This document shows, piece after piece, positions 328 to 9,784 of a stretch of 10,934 nt of DNA. Under the pieces are notes generated by a model. The model had not been told where the DNA came from. It made no database searches and worked only from the letters and a program-made list of their open reading frames with translations. Source of the DNA: Brevundimonas sp. (lineage in GTDB: Bacteria; Pseudomonadota; Alphaproteobacteria; Caulobacterales; Caulobacteraceae); contig JANJTI010000301.1 of assembly GCA_024711185.1 (NCBI GenBank), positions 1 to 10,934 of the forward strand, given 5' to 3'. Numbering within the stretch: the first letter of the stretch is position 1; each line of letters begins with the position of its first letter. The position numbers and the translations under genes are program-made.

Positions 328-1287
328 TCAGTCCGACTCCGTCTCCGCGGTCGTCTGCTGCGCCCGCCAGCGCCGGGCCATGTCGTTGGCCATGGTGGTG
401 GCCTGGGCGTGGGGGTTGATCCGTCGCACCGGGCCGCCCGCGACCCGGTACAGCGAGGTCAGATAGGTGCGATCCCATTCGGTCAGGCCGTCCACCGCCG
501 CGGGATTGTCGAACAGGTTCAGGACCGTATCGAAGCTCGACGTGTCTCCGTCAGGATCGACCTGGGCGAGCGACACGAAGGCGAGATAGTCCGCCAGCTG
601 CGCCAGATTGACGCCGCCGAGGTCGTCGACATCGACGACGATCACCGCCTTGTTGAACTCGTCGCGGATCTGGCTGGTCAGGCGCGAGGCCGCGAACACG
701 AATATCCTCGGGGCGACAGGGTTGCCGGTGACCGGATCCACGTCCCCGGGCATGCGCACGGCGATCTTGCCGCTCTCGGAGTCCACCGGCACGCTCACGT
801 GCCACCACCGCACCGGACGGTCGGCGGTCCGGAAGGCCCGCAGGGCCGGGTTGCCGCGATCCACCCCGCCGATGCCAATCCGGAACGCCCGCCGGTGCTC
901 GGCGACCATGGCGTCGGCCAGGGCGGCTCCGTCTTCCGCGAAGACGATCAGGACGTTGGCGTCGCACCCCGGCTCGGCGATCTCGAGGCCGAGGTCGAGG
1001 CCGATACGGGAGATTCGATCCGCCAGCGCCTGACCGATGTCGCGGCGGACGTTGACCACCCCGACGCAGAGCGCGTCCTGCCAGCGCGCCAGCCCCCGTC
1101 GGCGGGGCGGCGCGCCGACCTCGCCGACGAAGTCGCGAACCGCGTCCCCCAGCCGCCGATGGTCGACAACGACGTCCTCCAGCCGGACCGTCCCCGCCGG
1201 CGGCTCCTGGGGCGGCGCCGCGGCGGCGGCCTCCTGCGGCAGCGTCAGGGCGGCGGCGAGCGCTGCGGCGGTCAGCGAAATACCCAT
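328..1287 (-). CDS. Secreted protein of unknown function, paralog 1 of 3
   Basis: I do not recognise a named family. The 319-residue product starts with a hydrophobic segment (residues 1-24, MGISLTAAALAAALTLPQ) that looks like a signal peptide, so the protein is probably periplasmic. Next come a TonB-box-like LEDVVV (36-41), then EVGAPPRRRGLARW (56-69), two cysteines (C74, C108) conserved in all three paralogs and suited to a disulfide, and NVLIVFAED (111-119). RPVRWWHVSVPVD follows (157-169), then an IVVDVDDLGG strand (about 216-225), QLADYLAFVSLAQ (230-242) and LTEWDRTYLTSLY (268-280). The last two segments sit where zincin-like peptidases have HExxH and an LSxxDxxxLRxLY helix, but no HExxH is present. 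GGAG lies 9 bases before the ATG. It is 55 bases after the next paralog, so probably cotranscribed. Function is unknown. Confidence 0.88.
   Translation of the reverse strand: MGISLTAAALAAALTLPQEAAAAAPPQEPPAGTVRLEDVVVDHRRLGDAVRDFVGEVGAPPRRRGLARWQDALCVGVVNVRRDIGQALADRISRIGLDLGLEIAEPGCDANVLIVFAEDGAALADAMVAEHRRAFRIGIGGVDRGNPALRAFRTADRPVRWWHVSVPVDSESGKIAVRMPGDVDPVTGNPVAPRIFVFAASRLTSQIRDEFNKAVIVVDVDDLGGVNLAQLADYLAFVSLAQVDPDGDTSSFDTVLNLFDNPAAVDGLTEWDRTYLTSLYRVAGGPVRRINPHAQATTMANDMARRWRAQQTTAETESD
1088..1131. repeat. 44-bp coding repeat shared by paralogs 1 and 2
   Basis: Positions 1088-1131 and 2064-2107 match at 41 of 44 bases, counted by eye. They encode the equivalent FVGEVGAPPRRRGLARW and FVEEVGAPPRRRGLARW segments of the first two paralogs. 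Nucleotide identity here is clearly higher than in flanking parts of the genes, which suggests recent duplication, local gene conversion or strong constraint. Confidence 0.6.
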
Positions 1288-1342
1288 CGGTCTGGTCTCC
1301 AGGGAAGTGGGCAGCGCTCGAGGGCTGCGGGATGAATGGTGG

Positions 1343-2248
1343 TCAGGGCGCAGTGGAGCCGGCCTCCTGCCGCTCCCGCACCCTGCGCAGGCTGCGCAGC
1401 AACTCGCGCGTCTGGTCGCTGTCCCGAATACGCTCGGACGGGCCGCTGTAGAGCGCCTGCAGGTAGGCGCGATCCCAGTCGCTCAGCCCGGTCGCGGCCC
1501 CGTCGGCGCTGAACAGGTTGAGGATGGTGTCGAAGCGCTCGGTCCGGCCGTCTGGATCGACCTGGGCCAGGGAAACCATGGCGATATAGTCGGCGAGCTG
1601 CGGCAACGGGACGTCGCCCAACCGGCTTGCGTCGACCACGACGATCACCTTGTTCAGGTCGTCGCGCAGCCAGCGACCGCGGTTGACCAGACCATCTCCG
1701 GTGACGACAGGCGCATCTCCGCCCGGGACCCGTATGCCGATGGCGCCCGTGTAGGCGTCTACAGGCACGCTGACATGCCACCAGCGAACGGGCTGGTCCG
1801 AACCGCGGAAGTCCTCGAGGGCGAGATCGCCCCGCTCGAAACCGCCGACGCCGAAGTCGAAGATCCGCCGCCGGCGGTCGACCATCTCGCGCGCCATGGC
1901 GGCGGCGTCCTCGGCGAAAACGACCAGCACGTTCGGCCGGCAACCCGGCTCGCGCGGCGCGACGCCGTATTCCAGCGCCACCTGGGAGACGCGATCGGCG
2001 ATCGCCTGCGCGATCTCATGGCGAATATTGACGACGCCCACGCAGATCGGGTCTCGCCAGCGGGCCAGCCCCCGTCGCCGGGGCGGCGCGCCGACCTCCT
2101 CGACGAACTGCCGGGTCAGCGCTTCCAGCCGCGCGCCCTCGACCACGACCTCGTCGAGGGTGAGCGGCGCTTCCTGCGGGTTCGGCGGAGCCGCCTCCTG
2201 GCCCGAAGCATTGAGCGTCGCGGCGGCGATCAGGGCGAGGAGAGACAT
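1343..2248 (-). CDS. Secreted protein of unknown function, paralog 2 of 3
   Basis: This 301-residue protein has the same layout as its neighbours. It has a signal peptide (MSLLALIAAATLNASGQ), a TonB-box-like LDEVVVEGARLEAL (31-44), EVGAPPRRRGLARW (51-64), Cys pair C69/C103, NVLVVFAED (106-114) and QPVRWWHVSVPVD (152-164). VIVVVDASRLGDV (201-213), QLADYIAMVSLAQVDPD (217-233) and LSDWDRAYLQALY (255-267) follow. I chose the ATG at 2248 because GGGAG lies 7 bases upstream and the signal peptide then matches paralog 1. The frame is open to a TTG at 2302 and an ATG at 2299, which would add an Arg-containing n-region but have no visible ribosome binding site. It lies 55 bases upstream of paralog 1. 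It is probably periplasmic; the function is unknown. Confidence 0.88.
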   Translation of the reverse strand: MSLLALIAAATLNASGQEAAPPNPQEAPLTLDEVVVEGARLEALTRQFVEEVGAPPRRRGLARWRDPICVGVVNIRHEIAQAIADRVSQVALEYGVAPREPGCRPNVLVVFAEDAAAMAREMVDRRRRIFDFGVGGFERGDLALEDFRGSDQPVRWWHVSVPVDAYTGAIGIRVPGGDAPVVTGDGLVNRGRWLRDDLNKVIVVVDASRLGDVPLPQLADYIAMVSLAQVDPDGRTERFDTILNLFSADGAATGLSDWDRAYLQALYSGPSERIRDSDQTRELLRSLRRVRERQEAGSTAP

Positions 2249-2318
2249 GACGGCGCTCCCGGAGCGGGAGCGAAGAGCCCCACGAGAAGACGCTACCATC
2301 AAACACGCTTGGCGCGAA

Positions 2319-2342
2319 GCCGGCCCCGCGGCGGGCGCCGGC
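2319..2342. other. GC-rich hairpin between paralogs 2 and 3
   Basis: An inverted repeat (gccggcccc at 2319-2327 against ggg-c-gccggc at 2333-2342) gives a 9-bp stem with one bulged base and a 5-base loop. It lies in the 102-base gap between the second and third paralogs. No T-run follows on the minus strand, so it is more likely an RNA processing or stability element than a terminator, or simply a by-product of high GC. Confidence 0.3.
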
Positions 2343-2350
2343 CGGTCCCC

Positions 2351-3319
2351 CTACTCGCCAGAGGCGACTTCCGAATGCTGTGCATCCGCGCCGAGGCGCC
2401 GGGCCATCGCAGCGGCGACGGCCGAAAGGTTCGCCCGGCTGTCGGCGCTGGTCTGCCAAGTCCCGTAGAGGCCGGCGAGGAAGGCGCGGTCCCAGTCGGA
2501 AAGGGCGCCCACGTCGCCCCCACCGTCGAAGAGGCCCAGGATCGAGGGGACCGCGAAGGCGCGCGCCTCATCATCGATCTGCGCGAGGGCGACCATCGCG
2601 ACATAGTCGGTCAGTTGCTGAAACGTCGCCCTCTCCAGCGCGGCGCTGTCGATGACGATGATGACCTGTTGCAGGTCGTCGCGGGCGCCCGTGCCCAGGC
2701 GCGACGGCATGACGGTCATCTGGTTGACTCCGAAGTCGGACTTCTTCTGGAGCCTGCGGCCGGTCCATTCCACGGGCGCCTGTCCCGGCAGGCGGCGGAT
2801 CGGATCGCCGGTCTGTTCGTCCACCGGGAGGCTGACATGCCACCATCTCACCGGGCGATCGCCTTGCTGGAAGCGCCGCAGCGCGGCGGAGCCGCGGTCC
2901 GCGCCGGACACGCCGGTCCGGAACTCCCGGGGCCGGGCGGATACGAGCTCCCGGGCGGTGGCTGCGCCGTCCTCCGTCGCGACGACGAAGACATTTGTCC
3001 GGCACCGGGACGACCCGATGGCGACCCCGAAGCTGTGGGCCCAGTCGTAGATGCGGTCGATCATCGCCCTCGCCGCTTCGGCCTGCATGTTGGCGACGCC
3101 GACGCAGATCGGGTCGTGCCAGCGCGCCAGGCTGCGGCCCCGGGCCGGCGCCGCGACGGCCTCGGTGAAGGCTTCCGCCTGCGCCCGACGCGTGGCGCTG
3201 ACAACCACCTCATCCAGCTCATGCGGCTCCGGCTGTCCACCGGGGTCCTGGCCGGCGGGGAGCGTCAGGAGGATCGCCGGCGCGGCGATCATGCTCAGCC
3301 AGACGATTCGGAGTCCCAC
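2351..3319 (-). CDS. Secreted protein of unknown function, paralog 3 of 3 (first gene of the block)
   Basis: This 322-residue protein is the most divergent of the three. It has a signal peptide (GLRIVWLSMIAAPAILLTL) and a very TonB-box-like LDEVVVSATRR (35-45). RSLARWHDPICVGVAN (62-77), Cys pair C72/C106, NVFVVATED (109-117) and RPVRWWHVSLPVD (155-167) follow, then a unique insert around WTGRRLQKKSDFGVNQ (185-200). VIIVIDSAALERA (219-231), QLTDYVAMVALAQIDDE (235-251) and LSDWDRAFLAGLY (273-285) complete it. I chose the GTG at 3319 because GGGAG is 8 bases upstream and the Arg-containing signal peptide then sits at the N-terminus; a GTG at 3358 would add 13 residues. It lies 156 bases after the end of tig, behind a terminator, so the block needs its own promoter. 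I see only a TTGACC at 3381-3386 (minus) without a good -10. Confidence 0.86.
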   Translation of the reverse strand: MGLRIVWLSMIAAPAILLTLPAGQDPGGQPEPHELDEVVVSATRRAQAEAFTEAVAAPARGRSLARWHDPICVGVANMQAEAARAMIDRIYDWAHSFGVAIGSSRCRTNVFVVATEDGAATARELVSARPREFRTGVSGADRGSAALRRFQQGDRPVRWWHVSLPVDEQTGDPIRRLPGQAPVEWTGRRLQKKSDFGVNQMTVMPSRLGTGARDDLQQVIIVIDSAALERATFQQLTDYVAMVALAQIDDEARAFAVPSILGLFDGGGDVGALSDWDRAFLAGLYGTWQTSADSRANLSAVAAAMARRLGADAQHSEVASGE

Positions 3320-3419
3320 GGCCGCATCTCCCGCCCCACCCGCCTTCCCGGACGGCACCGTGCGGCCGCGGCATCGTGGAGGTCAATCCGGAACAGGAGC
3401 CGGCGCCGTCCGGCCAACG

Positions 3420-6028: not shown

Positions 6029-6056
6029 TGAACCGCCGGCCGGCCCGGGCGGTTCC
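6029..6056. promoter_or_regulatory. Near-symmetric two-way EcfG-type stress promoter
   Basis: On the minus strand GGAAC (6056-6052) and GTT (6033-6031) are 18 bases apart, facing the DUF883-like gene. On the plus strand the same inverted repeat reads TGAAC (6029-6033), 18 bases, GTT (6052-6054), facing the Pro/Asp-rich gene. The known EcfG consensus is GGAAC-N16/17-(C)GTT, so the minus-strand reading is the better match and the plus-strand reading has one -35 mismatch. Expected starts are near 6023 (minus) and 6062 (plus). Confidence 0.6.
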
Positions 6057-6390: not shown

Positions 6391-6415
6391 GGAACCGTAA
6401 GCAAGCCAGAGGGTT
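6391..6415 (+). promoter_or_regulatory. EcfG-type stress promoter of the KGG protein gene
   Basis: GGAAC (6391-6395) and GTT (6413-6415) are 17 bases apart, matching the EcfG consensus closely. The start would be near 6423, giving a leader of about 33 bases to the ATG at 6456. It lies in the short gap after the Pro/Asp-rich gene. Confidence 0.7.
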
Positions 6416-6455: not shown

Positions 6456-6677
6456 ATGGCTCAGAGTCAGCCCACGCGAGCCTCCGGCGTCTCCAAGCGG
6501 GGCTTCGCCTCGATGGACCCGGAACGCCAACGCGAGATTGCCCGCAAGGGCGGCGCCAGCGTCCCGAGCGAGAAGCGGAGTTTCTCCCAGGACCGCAGCC
6601 TGGCGGCCCAGGCGGGTCGCAAGGGGGGCGAGGCTTCCCACGGGTCCCGCAATCGCGAGCGGGCCGCCGGCGAATAG
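6456..6677 (+). CDS. KGG-repeat general stress protein
   Basis: This 73-residue, highly charged, hydrophilic protein has two copies of the KGG motif (stress-induced bacterial repeat, as in Bacillus GsiB and many proteobacterial stress proteins). They are RGFASMDPERQREIARKGG (15-33) and a looser copy, RSFSQDRSLAAQAGRKGGEA (41-60). Such proteins are glycine-rich, plant LEA-like and induced by stress; their molecular role is unclear. The ATG at 6456 has AAAGGAA about 8 bases upstream. An EcfG-type promoter lies just upstream, fitting a general stress role, and a strong two-way terminator follows. Confidence 0.93.
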   Translation: MAQSQPTRASGVSKRGFASMDPERQREIARKGGASVPSEKRSFSQDRSLAAQAGRKGGEASHGSRNRERAAGE

Positions 6678-6734: not shown

Positions 6735-8885
6735 TCAGGTCTCCAGCAGGGCCAGCGCCACCGCCGGCGGCGGGCCCTCACGGAAGTCCGCGACCCGCCA
6801 GCCGGCCGACCCGGCCAGTTCGGCGACCGATGCGGCGGTGAATTTCCGCGAGCTTTCCGTGTGGATCGTCTCGCCCGCAGCGAATGCAATCCGGCGCCCC
6901 GCGACGTGCACCGCCATGTCGCGCCGCGCCTCCAGATGCATCTCCATCCGCGACTCGGGACCATTCCAGAGCGCCCGATGGCGAAACGCCTCGACGTCGA
7001 AGTCGGCGCCCGCCTCGCGATTGGCGCGCGCCAGCAGGTTGCGGTTGAAGGCGGCGGTGACCCCCGCCGCGTCGTCGTAGGCCGCGATGAGGGTCTCGGG
7101 ATCCTTCACCAGGTCCACCCCGAGAATGAACAGGGCGCCCTCCCCCAGCAGGCTACGCGCGGCGCGCAGGAAGGCGATCGCCTCGTCCGGATCGAGGTTG
7201 CCGATCGTGGACCCGGGGAAGAAGCCGACGTGGCGCCCCTCCCCGATGCCGTCGGGCAGCCGGTCCAGATGCAGGAAGTCGCCCACCATCGGCCTGACCT
7301 GGAGATGGGGATAGGCCTGGGCGATGCGGTCCGCCGCAGCCTCAAGCGCATCGGCGCTGATGTCGATCGGCACATAGGCGGCCAGGTCCGGCGCGGCGTC
7401 CAGTACGATGCGGGTCTTCTCGCTGGCTCCCGAGCCGAACTCGACCAGCACCGCCCCCGCGCCGAAGCGCTGTGACCACCCGGGCGCCACGACCCGAAGC
7501 AGGGCCGCCTCCTGACGGGTCGGATAGTATTCCGGCAGGTCGGTGATCGCTTCGAACAGCCTCGACCCATCGGCGTCGTAGAACCATTTGGGCGAAACCC
7601 GCTTGGGCGATGCCTCCAGCCCCGCAAGCAGCGCCTCTCGAAAGCCGCTCCCTTCCTTTCCCCCGCTGCTTTCGCGGCGGACATCCCGCGCCAGCCGCAG
7701 ACCGGCGAAGGCCCAGCGCTGATGCGGATAGAAGAAGTTGCGGTAGCTCGCCCGCGCATGGCCGTCGGGCGTGACGAAGCTCGCGCCCCTCAGAACCATC
7801 TGGTTGGCCATGAACTTGCCGTTGTACTCGGCGGCGGTCCCCTCGGTCGGTTGGAAGCCCGGATAGGGCGTGTAGGGCGAGGCCGTCCACTGCCACACCT
7901 CGCTGAAGGTATTGGCCAGCGCGTCGGGCCGGGCGCGGGCGGCGTGCTCCCACTCCGCCTCCGTCGGCAGGCGGGCTCCAGCCCAGCGGGCGAAGGCGTC
8001 GGCCTCGTACCAGCTGATGTGCCGCACGGGCGTCGCCGGATTCACCGGCCGCCGGCCAGCCAGGGTCATGGTGCTCCAGCCCGTCGCCTCCCGTCGCCAG
8101 TACAGGGGGGCGGTCCAGCCTTCGGCCTTCACCAAAGCCCAGCCGTCGGACGTCCACAGCTCGGGCCGGGCGTAGCCCCCCTCGTCGATGAACTCGATCC
8201 ACGCGGCGTTCGTCGCGAGGTCGGCCGCGATCTCGAACGGCTCCAGCCAGACCCGATGCGCCGGGCCTTCGTTGTCGAAGGCGAAGCCGCCGCCGGCGTG
8301 ACCGATCTCGACCAGGCCCCCGTCGAACCCGCTCCAGCCGCCACGCGCCGGCTGCGCAGGTGCGACGCGCGGTTCGTCGGAGAAGGCCGCCGGGTCGAGA
8401 GGCGAGCGGGACATCAGGTGCAGCATATCCATCAGGAACAACTCCTGATGCTGCTGCTCGTGATGCAGACCCAGCTGCACGAGATATCGGGCGCGCGCGT
8501 CGCCGCGGCCCTCGCCCAGCCAGGCGACCATGCGCCGGTCCACCTCGCGCCGGTGGGCCAGCACGGCCTCCACGCCAGGGCGGGTGATCAGCCCGCGCTC
8601 CGGCCGGGCCACGCGCTCGCCCAAGGCCTCGTAATAGCTGTTGAACAGCAGCCCCCATGCCGGATCGACGGGCTCGTAGCCCGGTTCGGCCGACAGGATC
8701 ATCGCCTCCCAGAACCAGCTCGTGTGGGCGAGATGCCACTTGCCCGGACTGCAGTCCTGCATCGATTGGGCGGTCAGGTCCTCGGCCGAAAAGCCGCTGG
8801 CCAAGGCTGGCAGGACCGCACGAACCTGACGGAAAGCGGTGGTGGCGTCAGACGCGCCGGAGGTAATCCCCGCCTGGGTGTTCAT
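6735..8885 (-). CDS. egtBD: Fused EgtB-EgtD: ergothioneine sulfoxide synthase joined to histidine N-alpha-methyltransferase
   Basis: This 716-residue protein holds two enzymes of ergothioneine synthesis. Residues 1-402 are EgtB, the non-haem iron enzyme that couples hercynine to a thiol donor with O2. It has a DinB-like domain with iron ligands H54 (HLAHTSWFWE), H142 and H146 (HHEQQHQELF), then an FGE-sulfatase domain (about 185-400: WYEADAFARWAGARLPTEAE, MVLRGASF, YRNFFYPHQRWAFAGLRLAR). Residues about 415-716 are EgtD, the SAM-dependent enzyme that trimethylates histidine to hercynine (PKWFYDADGSRLFEAITDLP, SAM loop VEFGSGASEKTR at 481-492, GFFPGSTIGNLDP at 554-566, HTESSRKF at 675-682). The linker (about 402-414, ESSGGKEGSG) is short. 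The ATG at 8885 has GGAAGAG 5 bases upstream. EgtC and EgtE are not nearby. A symmetric EcfG-type promoter shared with the sigma gene suggests stress induction. Confidence 0.95.
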   Translation of the reverse strand: MNTQAGITSGASDATTAFRQVRAVLPALASGFSAEDLTAQSMQDCSPGKWHLAHTSWFWEAMILSAEPGYEPVDPAWGLLFNSYYEALGERVARPERGLITRPGVEAVLAHRREVDRRMVAWLGEGRGDARARYLVQLGLHHEQQHQELFLMDMLHLMSRSPLDPAAFSDEPRVAPAQPARGGWSGFDGGLVEIGHAGGGFAFDNEGPAHRVWLEPFEIAADLATNAAWIEFIDEGGYARPELWTSDGWALVKAEGWTAPLYWRREATGWSTMTLAGRRPVNPATPVRHISWYEADAFARWAGARLPTEAEWEHAARARPDALANTFSEVWQWTASPYTPYPGFQPTEGTAAEYNGKFMANQMVLRGASFVTPDGHARASYRNFFYPHQRWAFAGLRLARDVRRESSGGKEGSGFREALLAGLEASPKRVSPKWFYDADGSRLFEAITDLPEYYPTRQEAALLRVVAPGWSQRFGAGAVLVEFGSGASEKTRIVLDAAPDLAAYVPIDISADALEAAADRIAQAYPHLQVRPMVGDFLHLDRLPDGIGEGRHVGFFPGSTIGNLDPDEAIAFLRAARSLLGEGALFILGVDLVKDPETLIAAYDDAAGVTAAFNRNLLARANREAGADFDVEAFRHRALWNGPESRMEMHLEARRDMAVHVAGRRIAFAAGETIHTESSRKFTAASVAELAGSAGWRVADFREGPPPAVALALLET

Positions 8886-8974
8886 ACGGTCTCTTCCAGC
8901 TTCTGGCCCCCTTCACATGGTTCGTCGACGCCACGGACGCCAGCCGCGGCGGCCAAAGTCGACGGCCCGACACA

Positions 8975-9001
8975 GGAACGGCTCCCGGGGGGCGGCGTTC
9001 C
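8975..9001. promoter_or_regulatory. Perfectly symmetric two-way EcfG-type promoter (ecfG / egtBD)
   Basis: GGAAC (8975-8979), 17 bases, GTTCC (8997-9001) is an exact inverted repeat of the EcfG -35 and -10 cores. On the plus strand it reads GGAAC-N16-CGTT toward the sigma gene (start near 9007, leader about 50 bases). On the minus strand it reads GGAAC-N17-GTT toward egtBD (start near 8968, leader about 83 bases). It implies autoregulation of the sigma factor and co-induction of ergothioneine synthesis. Confidence 0.75.
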
Positions 9002-9057
9002 GAAAGGGTCGGCGGCTCGCGTGGGAGCCGTCCCCCTCCGACCGACAGGATCGTCGA

Positions 9058-9631: not shown

Positions 9632-9784
9632 TCAAACCCGGCGGTCCTTGCGGGCGGTCGAGGTCAGGGCTTCGAGATGCGCCCTGAGCCGATCCGGCAC
9701 GGGCTGATCCTCGACCGCCCGGAAGGCCGCCCGCAACTGCTGTTCTGCAGACGGCCGTTCGCCGTCTGGCCGCTTCTTTCCCAT
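9632..9784 (-). CDS. Short NepR-like anti-sigma factor candidate
   Basis: This 50-residue product (from MGKKRPDGERPSAEQQLRAA) carries QQLRAAFRAVEDQPVPDRLR (15-34) followed by AHLEAL. This closely follows the NepR core, LRxxYxxVxxEPVPDRFxxLLxxL, which forms the two helices that clamp EcfG. NepR proteins are usually about 60 residues, so this is near the lower limit but complete for the core. The frame is open upstream into the aldolase 3' end, but no start codon falls between residue 1 and the aldolase stop region. The ribosome binding site is weak, and a CCGCCCGGGCGG palindrome (9797-9808) lies just upstream. Usually nepR is beside and codirectional with ecfG; here it is convergent, 1 base from the sigma gene's end, and 31 bases after the aldolase, with which it may be cotranscribed. 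Confidence 0.72.
   Translation of the reverse strand: MGKKRPDGERPSAEQQLRAAFRAVEDQPVPDRLRAHLEALTSTARKDRRV

Follow-up and report, generated by a model that had tools for sequence, protein, structure and literature searches.

The box at positions 8975-9001 (GGAACGGCTCCCGGGGGGCGGCGTTCC) of a window of 10,934 nucleotides from a Brevundimonas sp. genome separates a gene for an EcfG-type sigma factor from a divergent gene for ergothioneine synthesis (egtBD), and it matched the EcfG consensus GGAAC-N16-CGTT on both strands, at 8975-8999 (+) and at 8977-9001 (-). We consider it fairly probable that this box is a two-way EcfG-type promoter serving both the sigma gene and egtBD. One symmetric box appears to have replaced two separate back-to-back promoters that relatives carry in the same interval. 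Our confidence in two-way use is restrained because the argument comes down to one event: the separate egt-directed box is missing in exactly the clade with the two-way-reading box.

The first-pass annotation had described an exact inverted repeat with EcfG spacing on both strands, and this description held. The perfect arms of the repeat are 6 bp long (GGAACG/CGTTCC), and the -35 element of each direction has three bases in common with the -10 element of the opposite direction. GGAAC-N16/17-CGTT occurred exactly twice within the 10.9 kb of the window, both times in this box; shuffled windows contained a mean of 0.13 matches, and two matches were reached in one of 200 shuffles. An EcfG box is hardly to be expected here by chance, whereas its symmetry alone, once the box is given, is unremarkable. 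The EcfG consensus is roughly its own complement, and a box reads both ways once CC follows CGTT. CC followed CGTT in 8 of the 63 EcfG boxes of three genomes, a count in which one symmetric site may enter once per strand, compared to 9.0 expected from single-base frequencies, so symmetry is not enriched among EcfG boxes. As a sequence, the box is compatible with two binding orientations, which would exclude each other.

Table 1. Positions of the symmetric box, its elements and the neighbouring genes in the window
Feature	Position	Strand	Basis or remark
Symmetric EcfG-type promoter box, GGAACG-N15-CGTTCC	8975..9001	both	sequence; L032, L201 and L202 of the same form as L031 (window)
-35 GGAAC of sigma gene	8975..8979	+	33/33 orthologs; 8977-8979 also within the egt-direction -10
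-10 CGTT of sigma gene	8996..8999	+	CGTT kept in 33/33 orthologs
-35 GGAAC of egtBD (predicted)	8997..9001	-	sole minus-strand GGAAC in the intergenic region
-10 CGTT of egtBD (predicted)	8977..8980	-	consensus match
Accessory EcfG-type ECF sigma factor, 190 aa	9058..9630	+	Pfam Sigma70_r2, Sigma70_r4_2, PhyR_sigma2 (48.1 bits, cut-off 27); 44% identity to the nepR-linked core EcfG
716-aa fusion of EgtB and EgtD for ergothioneine synthesis	6735..8885	-	TIGR03440 507.4 bits (cut-off 360), TIGR03438 366.6 bits (cut-off 290.9)
NepR-like 50-aa ORF, convergent with sigma gene	9632..9784	-	PF18557 26.1 bits (cut-off 25.7)

The genes on either side are divergent, as had been annotated from the sequence, but the sigma gene is not the master ecfG of the genome, and egtB and egtD form a single fused ORF. 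Judged by its phylogeny and gene neighbourhood, the window sigma is an accessory EcfG paralog, because the master nepR-ecfG pair lies on another contig (C242; the window is contig C213 of an assembly 78% complete in 374 contigs) and because eight window-type sigma sequences, the window's included, form their own clade (support 100/100), distinct from core EcfG as well as from six EcfG sequences of the same order. The tree includes only these 6 of the 13 loci in the same-order set, those for which a gene could be called; the 13 had a phyR match in every case and a nepR match in nine. In one further genome, G009, a divergent phyR stands beside the same nepR-ecfG pair. The linkage to nepR and phyR that marks the primary copy is absent at the window sigma locus, where only a weak NepR-like convergent ORF was present. 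Of 131 genomes of the genus, 33 have an ortholog of the window-type sigma (E <= 1e-55).

The NepR-like ORF lies one base from the stop of the accessory sigma gene. A tblastn match to it adjoins 8 of the 33 sigma orthologs, and its counterpart in G154 gave no Pfam match. A gene resembling beta-eliminating lyases and threonine aldolases is also found downstream of the sigma gene. On the other side of the box, the fusion in one frame occurred in 52 of 61 same-genus genomes; among the remaining ones, four had no EgtBD match (E <= 1e-60), the gene was split in G003, G023, G035 and G041, and its pieces lay on two contigs in G022. The domain order in the fused ORF is EgtB-EgtD, the reverse of that in fungal Egt1. 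Among named loci, those nearest to the window's EgtBD belong to Brevundimonas.

A perfect GGAAC-N16/17-CGTT preceded the sigma gene in all 33 orthologs. At 31 of these loci egtBD divergently adjoins the sigma gene; at L047 and L215 it was not found within the 1.5 kb examined. A separate, egt-directed EcfG-like GGAAC box was present at 27 of the 31 syntenic loci, which are all 27 of those outside the clade of the window. The -10 element of this separate box (GGAAC-N15-18) was CATT in 11 cases, GGTT in eight, CGTT in six and TGTT in two, and the two -35 ends lay 23-26 bp apart in 19 of the 27 and 14-20 or 46-48 bp apart in the remainder. At the other four syntenic loci, those of the window (L031) and of L032, L201 and L202, the box of the sigma gene is symmetric, and no further minus-strand GGAAC box came to light, not even when the pattern was relaxed. 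In a maximum-likelihood tree of the sigma these four formed one clade (99/95) among separate-box loci, so the symmetric-only state looks derived and seems to have arisen once; the fork that nests the clade among separate-box loci has a support of 85/88 only. Three loci (L040, L044 and L212) carry a separate egt box and a symmetric box together. Their CC-bearing box corresponds to two changes on the tree, and they possibly represent an intermediate state. In Brevundimonas bullata (L062), whose symmetric box has the same sequence as that of G001 from the same genus, both kinds of box occur.

Within the four-locus clade GGAACG and CGTTCC were invariant, as were 5 of the 15 spacer columns. That the minus-specific bases are kept in all four genomes adds little to the case for two-way use, since 66 of the 136 ungapped columns outside the box were likewise invariant. 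The suggestion that one site serves both genes is the simplest reading, the box being the only recognisable EcfG promoter in the window and its three relatives while every other syntenic locus keeps a separate egt box.

For the two-way promoter we infer a mechanism that extends from egt-directed transcription, exclusivity and competition to the driving sigma and the order of evolutionary steps. An EcfG-type holoenzyme, formed with master EcfG, with the accessory sigma or with both, would bind the box in one of two mutually exclusive orientations, the rightward one leading to transcription of the accessory sigma gene and the leftward one to that of egtB-egtD. With the -35 of each direction overlapping the opposite -10, occupancy by two polymerases at once would be excluded. 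Going by the usual distance from the -10 element to the start, transcription is predicted to begin at ~9005-9008 in the sigma direction and at ~8968-8971 in the egt direction. In the lineage of the window, the sigma-gene box would have gained CC after its -10, which would have made the older egt-directed box dispensable, and this separate box would then have been lost. The full proposal is that a pair of EcfG promoters, ancestrally back to back, merged into a single self-complementary box whose -35 elements each double as the -10 of the opposite direction, and that use for egtBD excludes use for the sigma gene; it is tentative, and we place it a little short of even.

The first-pass annotation had also spoken of sigma autoamplification, which goes too far as worded: the sigma is an accessory paralog, and drive by master EcfG is equally possible. 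The accessory sigma may regulate its own gene, or master EcfG may drive it, as in Caulobacter, where sigma-U is regulated by sigma-T according to a statement in the available text of PMC7083833.

Interference between the two directions under stress is plausible by analogy with E. coli bidirectional promoters and with HrpL of P. syringae. At the E. coli promoters, as far as the accessible portion of Warman et al. (2026, PMC12825309) describes them, competition arises if one direction is substantially activated and does not arise at basal level; in P. syringae the ECF sigma HrpL, acting at the divergent hrpJ promoter, brings about negative control of its own gene (PMC5263251, in the part available). 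An alternative compatible with a two-way promoter is that both directions fire too weakly to interfere, which would leave simple co-regulation with no competition or ratio. This is a distinct possibility, though short of probable: five of five tested E. coli bidirectional promoters were too low in basal activity for polymerase competition, but strong activation of one direction led to competition (both from the same portion of PMC12825309), and the stress response might activate one direction in this way.

The egtBD gene also occurs away from the sigma gene, the sigma neighbour being absent at 22 of the 30 best EgtBD matches. Upstream of egtBD, GGAAC-N15-18-N[AG]TT was present within 400 bases at 11 of these 22 loci, and therefore the stress-type box there is independent of the sigma neighbour; at the other 11 no EcfG box was found within 400 bases, so loss of EcfG control seems to occur in the genus. 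Three further sigma-less Brevundimonas-like loci had a box in two cases (L061, L100) and none in the third (L063). As a pattern match, the EcfG-type box before egtBD is widespread and sometimes absent. In eight sigma-less relatives (L143-L150) egtBD is preceded at a distance of ~100-130 bases by an aldolase gene of the same strand, and in six of the eight no EcfG box was found there. In Sphingopyxis granuli, egtB and egtD lie within the EcfG (GSR) regulon, according to the accessible sections of PMC7083833. For Sphingomonas melonis, the available part of PMC6599016 gives log2 ratios of about -4 for a gene of the EgtB family (TIGR03440) and for the methyltransferase gene beside it; their motif scores, 6.61 and 6.03, are both below the direct-target cut-off of 10.

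The sigma-less loci bear on a second alternative, in which the box drives the sigma gene only, its symmetry is accidental, and in the clade egtBD is no longer under EcfG control but is transcribed from a housekeeping promoter. We regard this as unlikely, though well above negligible. When the sigma gene is the divergent neighbour, all 27 loci outside the clade keep an egt-directed box, and the sole clade lacking a separate one is that whose remaining box reads both ways; these two facts stand against the chance frequency of CC after CGTT, the symmetric boxes of L040, L044 and L212 despite a retained egt box, and the missing EcfG box at half of the 22 sigma-less loci, all of which fit accidental symmetry. 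A reading of the palindrome as the operator of a dimeric regulator (repressor or activator) and not as a promoter, which its location between divergent genes might suggest, is very improbable, because GGAAC-N16/17-CGTT is kept in all 33 orthologous boxes, the symmetry-making CC is missing in 26 of the 33, and the spacer length varies (16 or 17).

Symmetric stress promoters had further been proposed as a recurring design, with a second example at 6029-6056. The left half of that site is TGAAC, not GGAAC, and only its minus strand matches. Besides the focal box, the four clade genomes contain 24 GGAAC-N17/18-GTTCC sites, which a crude codon-usage gene caller made for this analysis assigned to divergent gaps (18), codirectional gaps (5) and the inside of a gene (1). 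This proportion looked striking and was weakened by two controls. The N20/21 control sites, 15 of 18 of which had loci, were divergent in 7 of 15 cases, codirectional in five, within genes in two and unclassified in one; intergenic asymmetric one-way boxes were divergent in 23 of 40 (one unclassified box dropped). The intergenic symmetric sites, grouped by eye into 13 families with the focal box included, were divergent in nine families, not significantly different from the one-way boxes (p 0.53, Fisher test), and CC was present in 6 of 29 divergent compared to 1 of 17 codirectional boxes (p 0.23, Fisher test). The control comparison covered 60 loci, 30 of the 38 sites of G000 and 30 of the 114 sites of G009 and G116, with L001, L029 and L030 scored at a neighbouring site, the focal box counted from both strands, and duplicates merged by hand before the Fisher tests.

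Genus-wide, 101 genomes contained 376 palindromes with N17/18 compared to 467 with N20/21. The count for a backwards-pattern control in these genomes was 694, with the N17/18 pattern above it in 28, below it in 68 and tied in five; in each of the four genomes of the clade the pattern was ahead of this control (6:1, 10:3, 5:2 and 7:6). With symmetry at chance frequency, the divergent excess not significant and the N17/18 palindromes fewer than those with N20/21, the idea of a recurring design was not borne out.

A symmetric EcfG-like box is also shared by the gene for the chaperone Hsp33 and a short-chain dehydrogenase gene divergent from it (L232, 1501-1528, and orthologs). In the 30 best of the 60 genomes with a match, the box of this pair was symmetric in 8, one-way in 4 and absent in 18. 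A separate Hsp33-directed box was present in none of these 30, and for this reason the pair was rejected as proof of two-way use.

Elsewhere in the window, three tandem ORFs of similar length at 328-3358 (-) are related in sequence by eye, and the middle one (1346-2302) had no Pfam or NCBIfam match. A gene for a KGG stress protein (6456-6677) follows GGAAC-N17-GTT at 6391-6415 (+) at a distance of ~40 bases. A KGG gene that appears similar by eye stands directly upstream of the sigma gene at L047.

The 8975-9001 box is probably a variant within the known class of bidirectional promoters. Both the membership of egtB and egtD in the Sphingopyxis EcfG regulon and polymerase competition at sigma-70 bidirectional promoters are already known. 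Like the E. coli promoters of PMC12825309, the box is one pseudo-symmetric sequence on which polymerase would sit in two exclusive orientations. In the E. coli case, as covered by the available text, the symmetry is confined to a -10 that both directions share and the starts are most often 18 bp apart, whereas here the whole promoter is symmetric, each -35 overlaps the opposite -10, and the predicted starts are ~36 bp apart. The hrpL-hrpJ region of Pseudomonas syringae, in the available part of PMC5263251, similarly has an ECF sigma gene divergent from a target gene, with sigma-polymerase bound at the shared region feeding back on the sigma gene; it differs in that hrpL needs sigma-54 and in that the elements are adjacent, with no single symmetric box. 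EcfG1 and EcfG2 of Sphingopyxis granuli are likewise EcfG paralogs under hierarchical control, with egtB and egtD in the regulon and GGAAC-N16-CGTT as the motif, but there the paralog is divergent from the nepR-ecfG operon and not from egt genes, and no two-way box is noted in the accessible text of PMC7083833. A literature search, with subscription journals mostly outside it, found no report of an EcfG promoter whose -35 doubles as the opposite -10, and the main text of PMC6599016 and of PMC3616915 contains neither "bidirectional" nor "palindrom".

If the merger is true, egtBD would have gained a consensus -10, which is present in the separate box of no more than 6 of the 27 relatives; we count this as a gain because a change from CGTT to CATT or TGTT in one S. 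granuli promoter lowered in vitro transcription (available text of PMC7083833). The presumed ancestral state, loci with both boxes and the merged state all lie within one genus, so that the presumed passage from two promoters to one can be traced. With a consensus so nearly self-complementary, about one EcfG box in eight (8/63 in the three genomes) could be two-way wherever sigma factors of this family are active. Two-way use, if true, would widen the class of bidirectional promoters beyond sigma-70 to include those of an ECF sigma whose consensus lets whole-promoter symmetry evolve easily, and would link ergothioneine production in Brevundimonas with the general stress response of Alphaproteobacteria.
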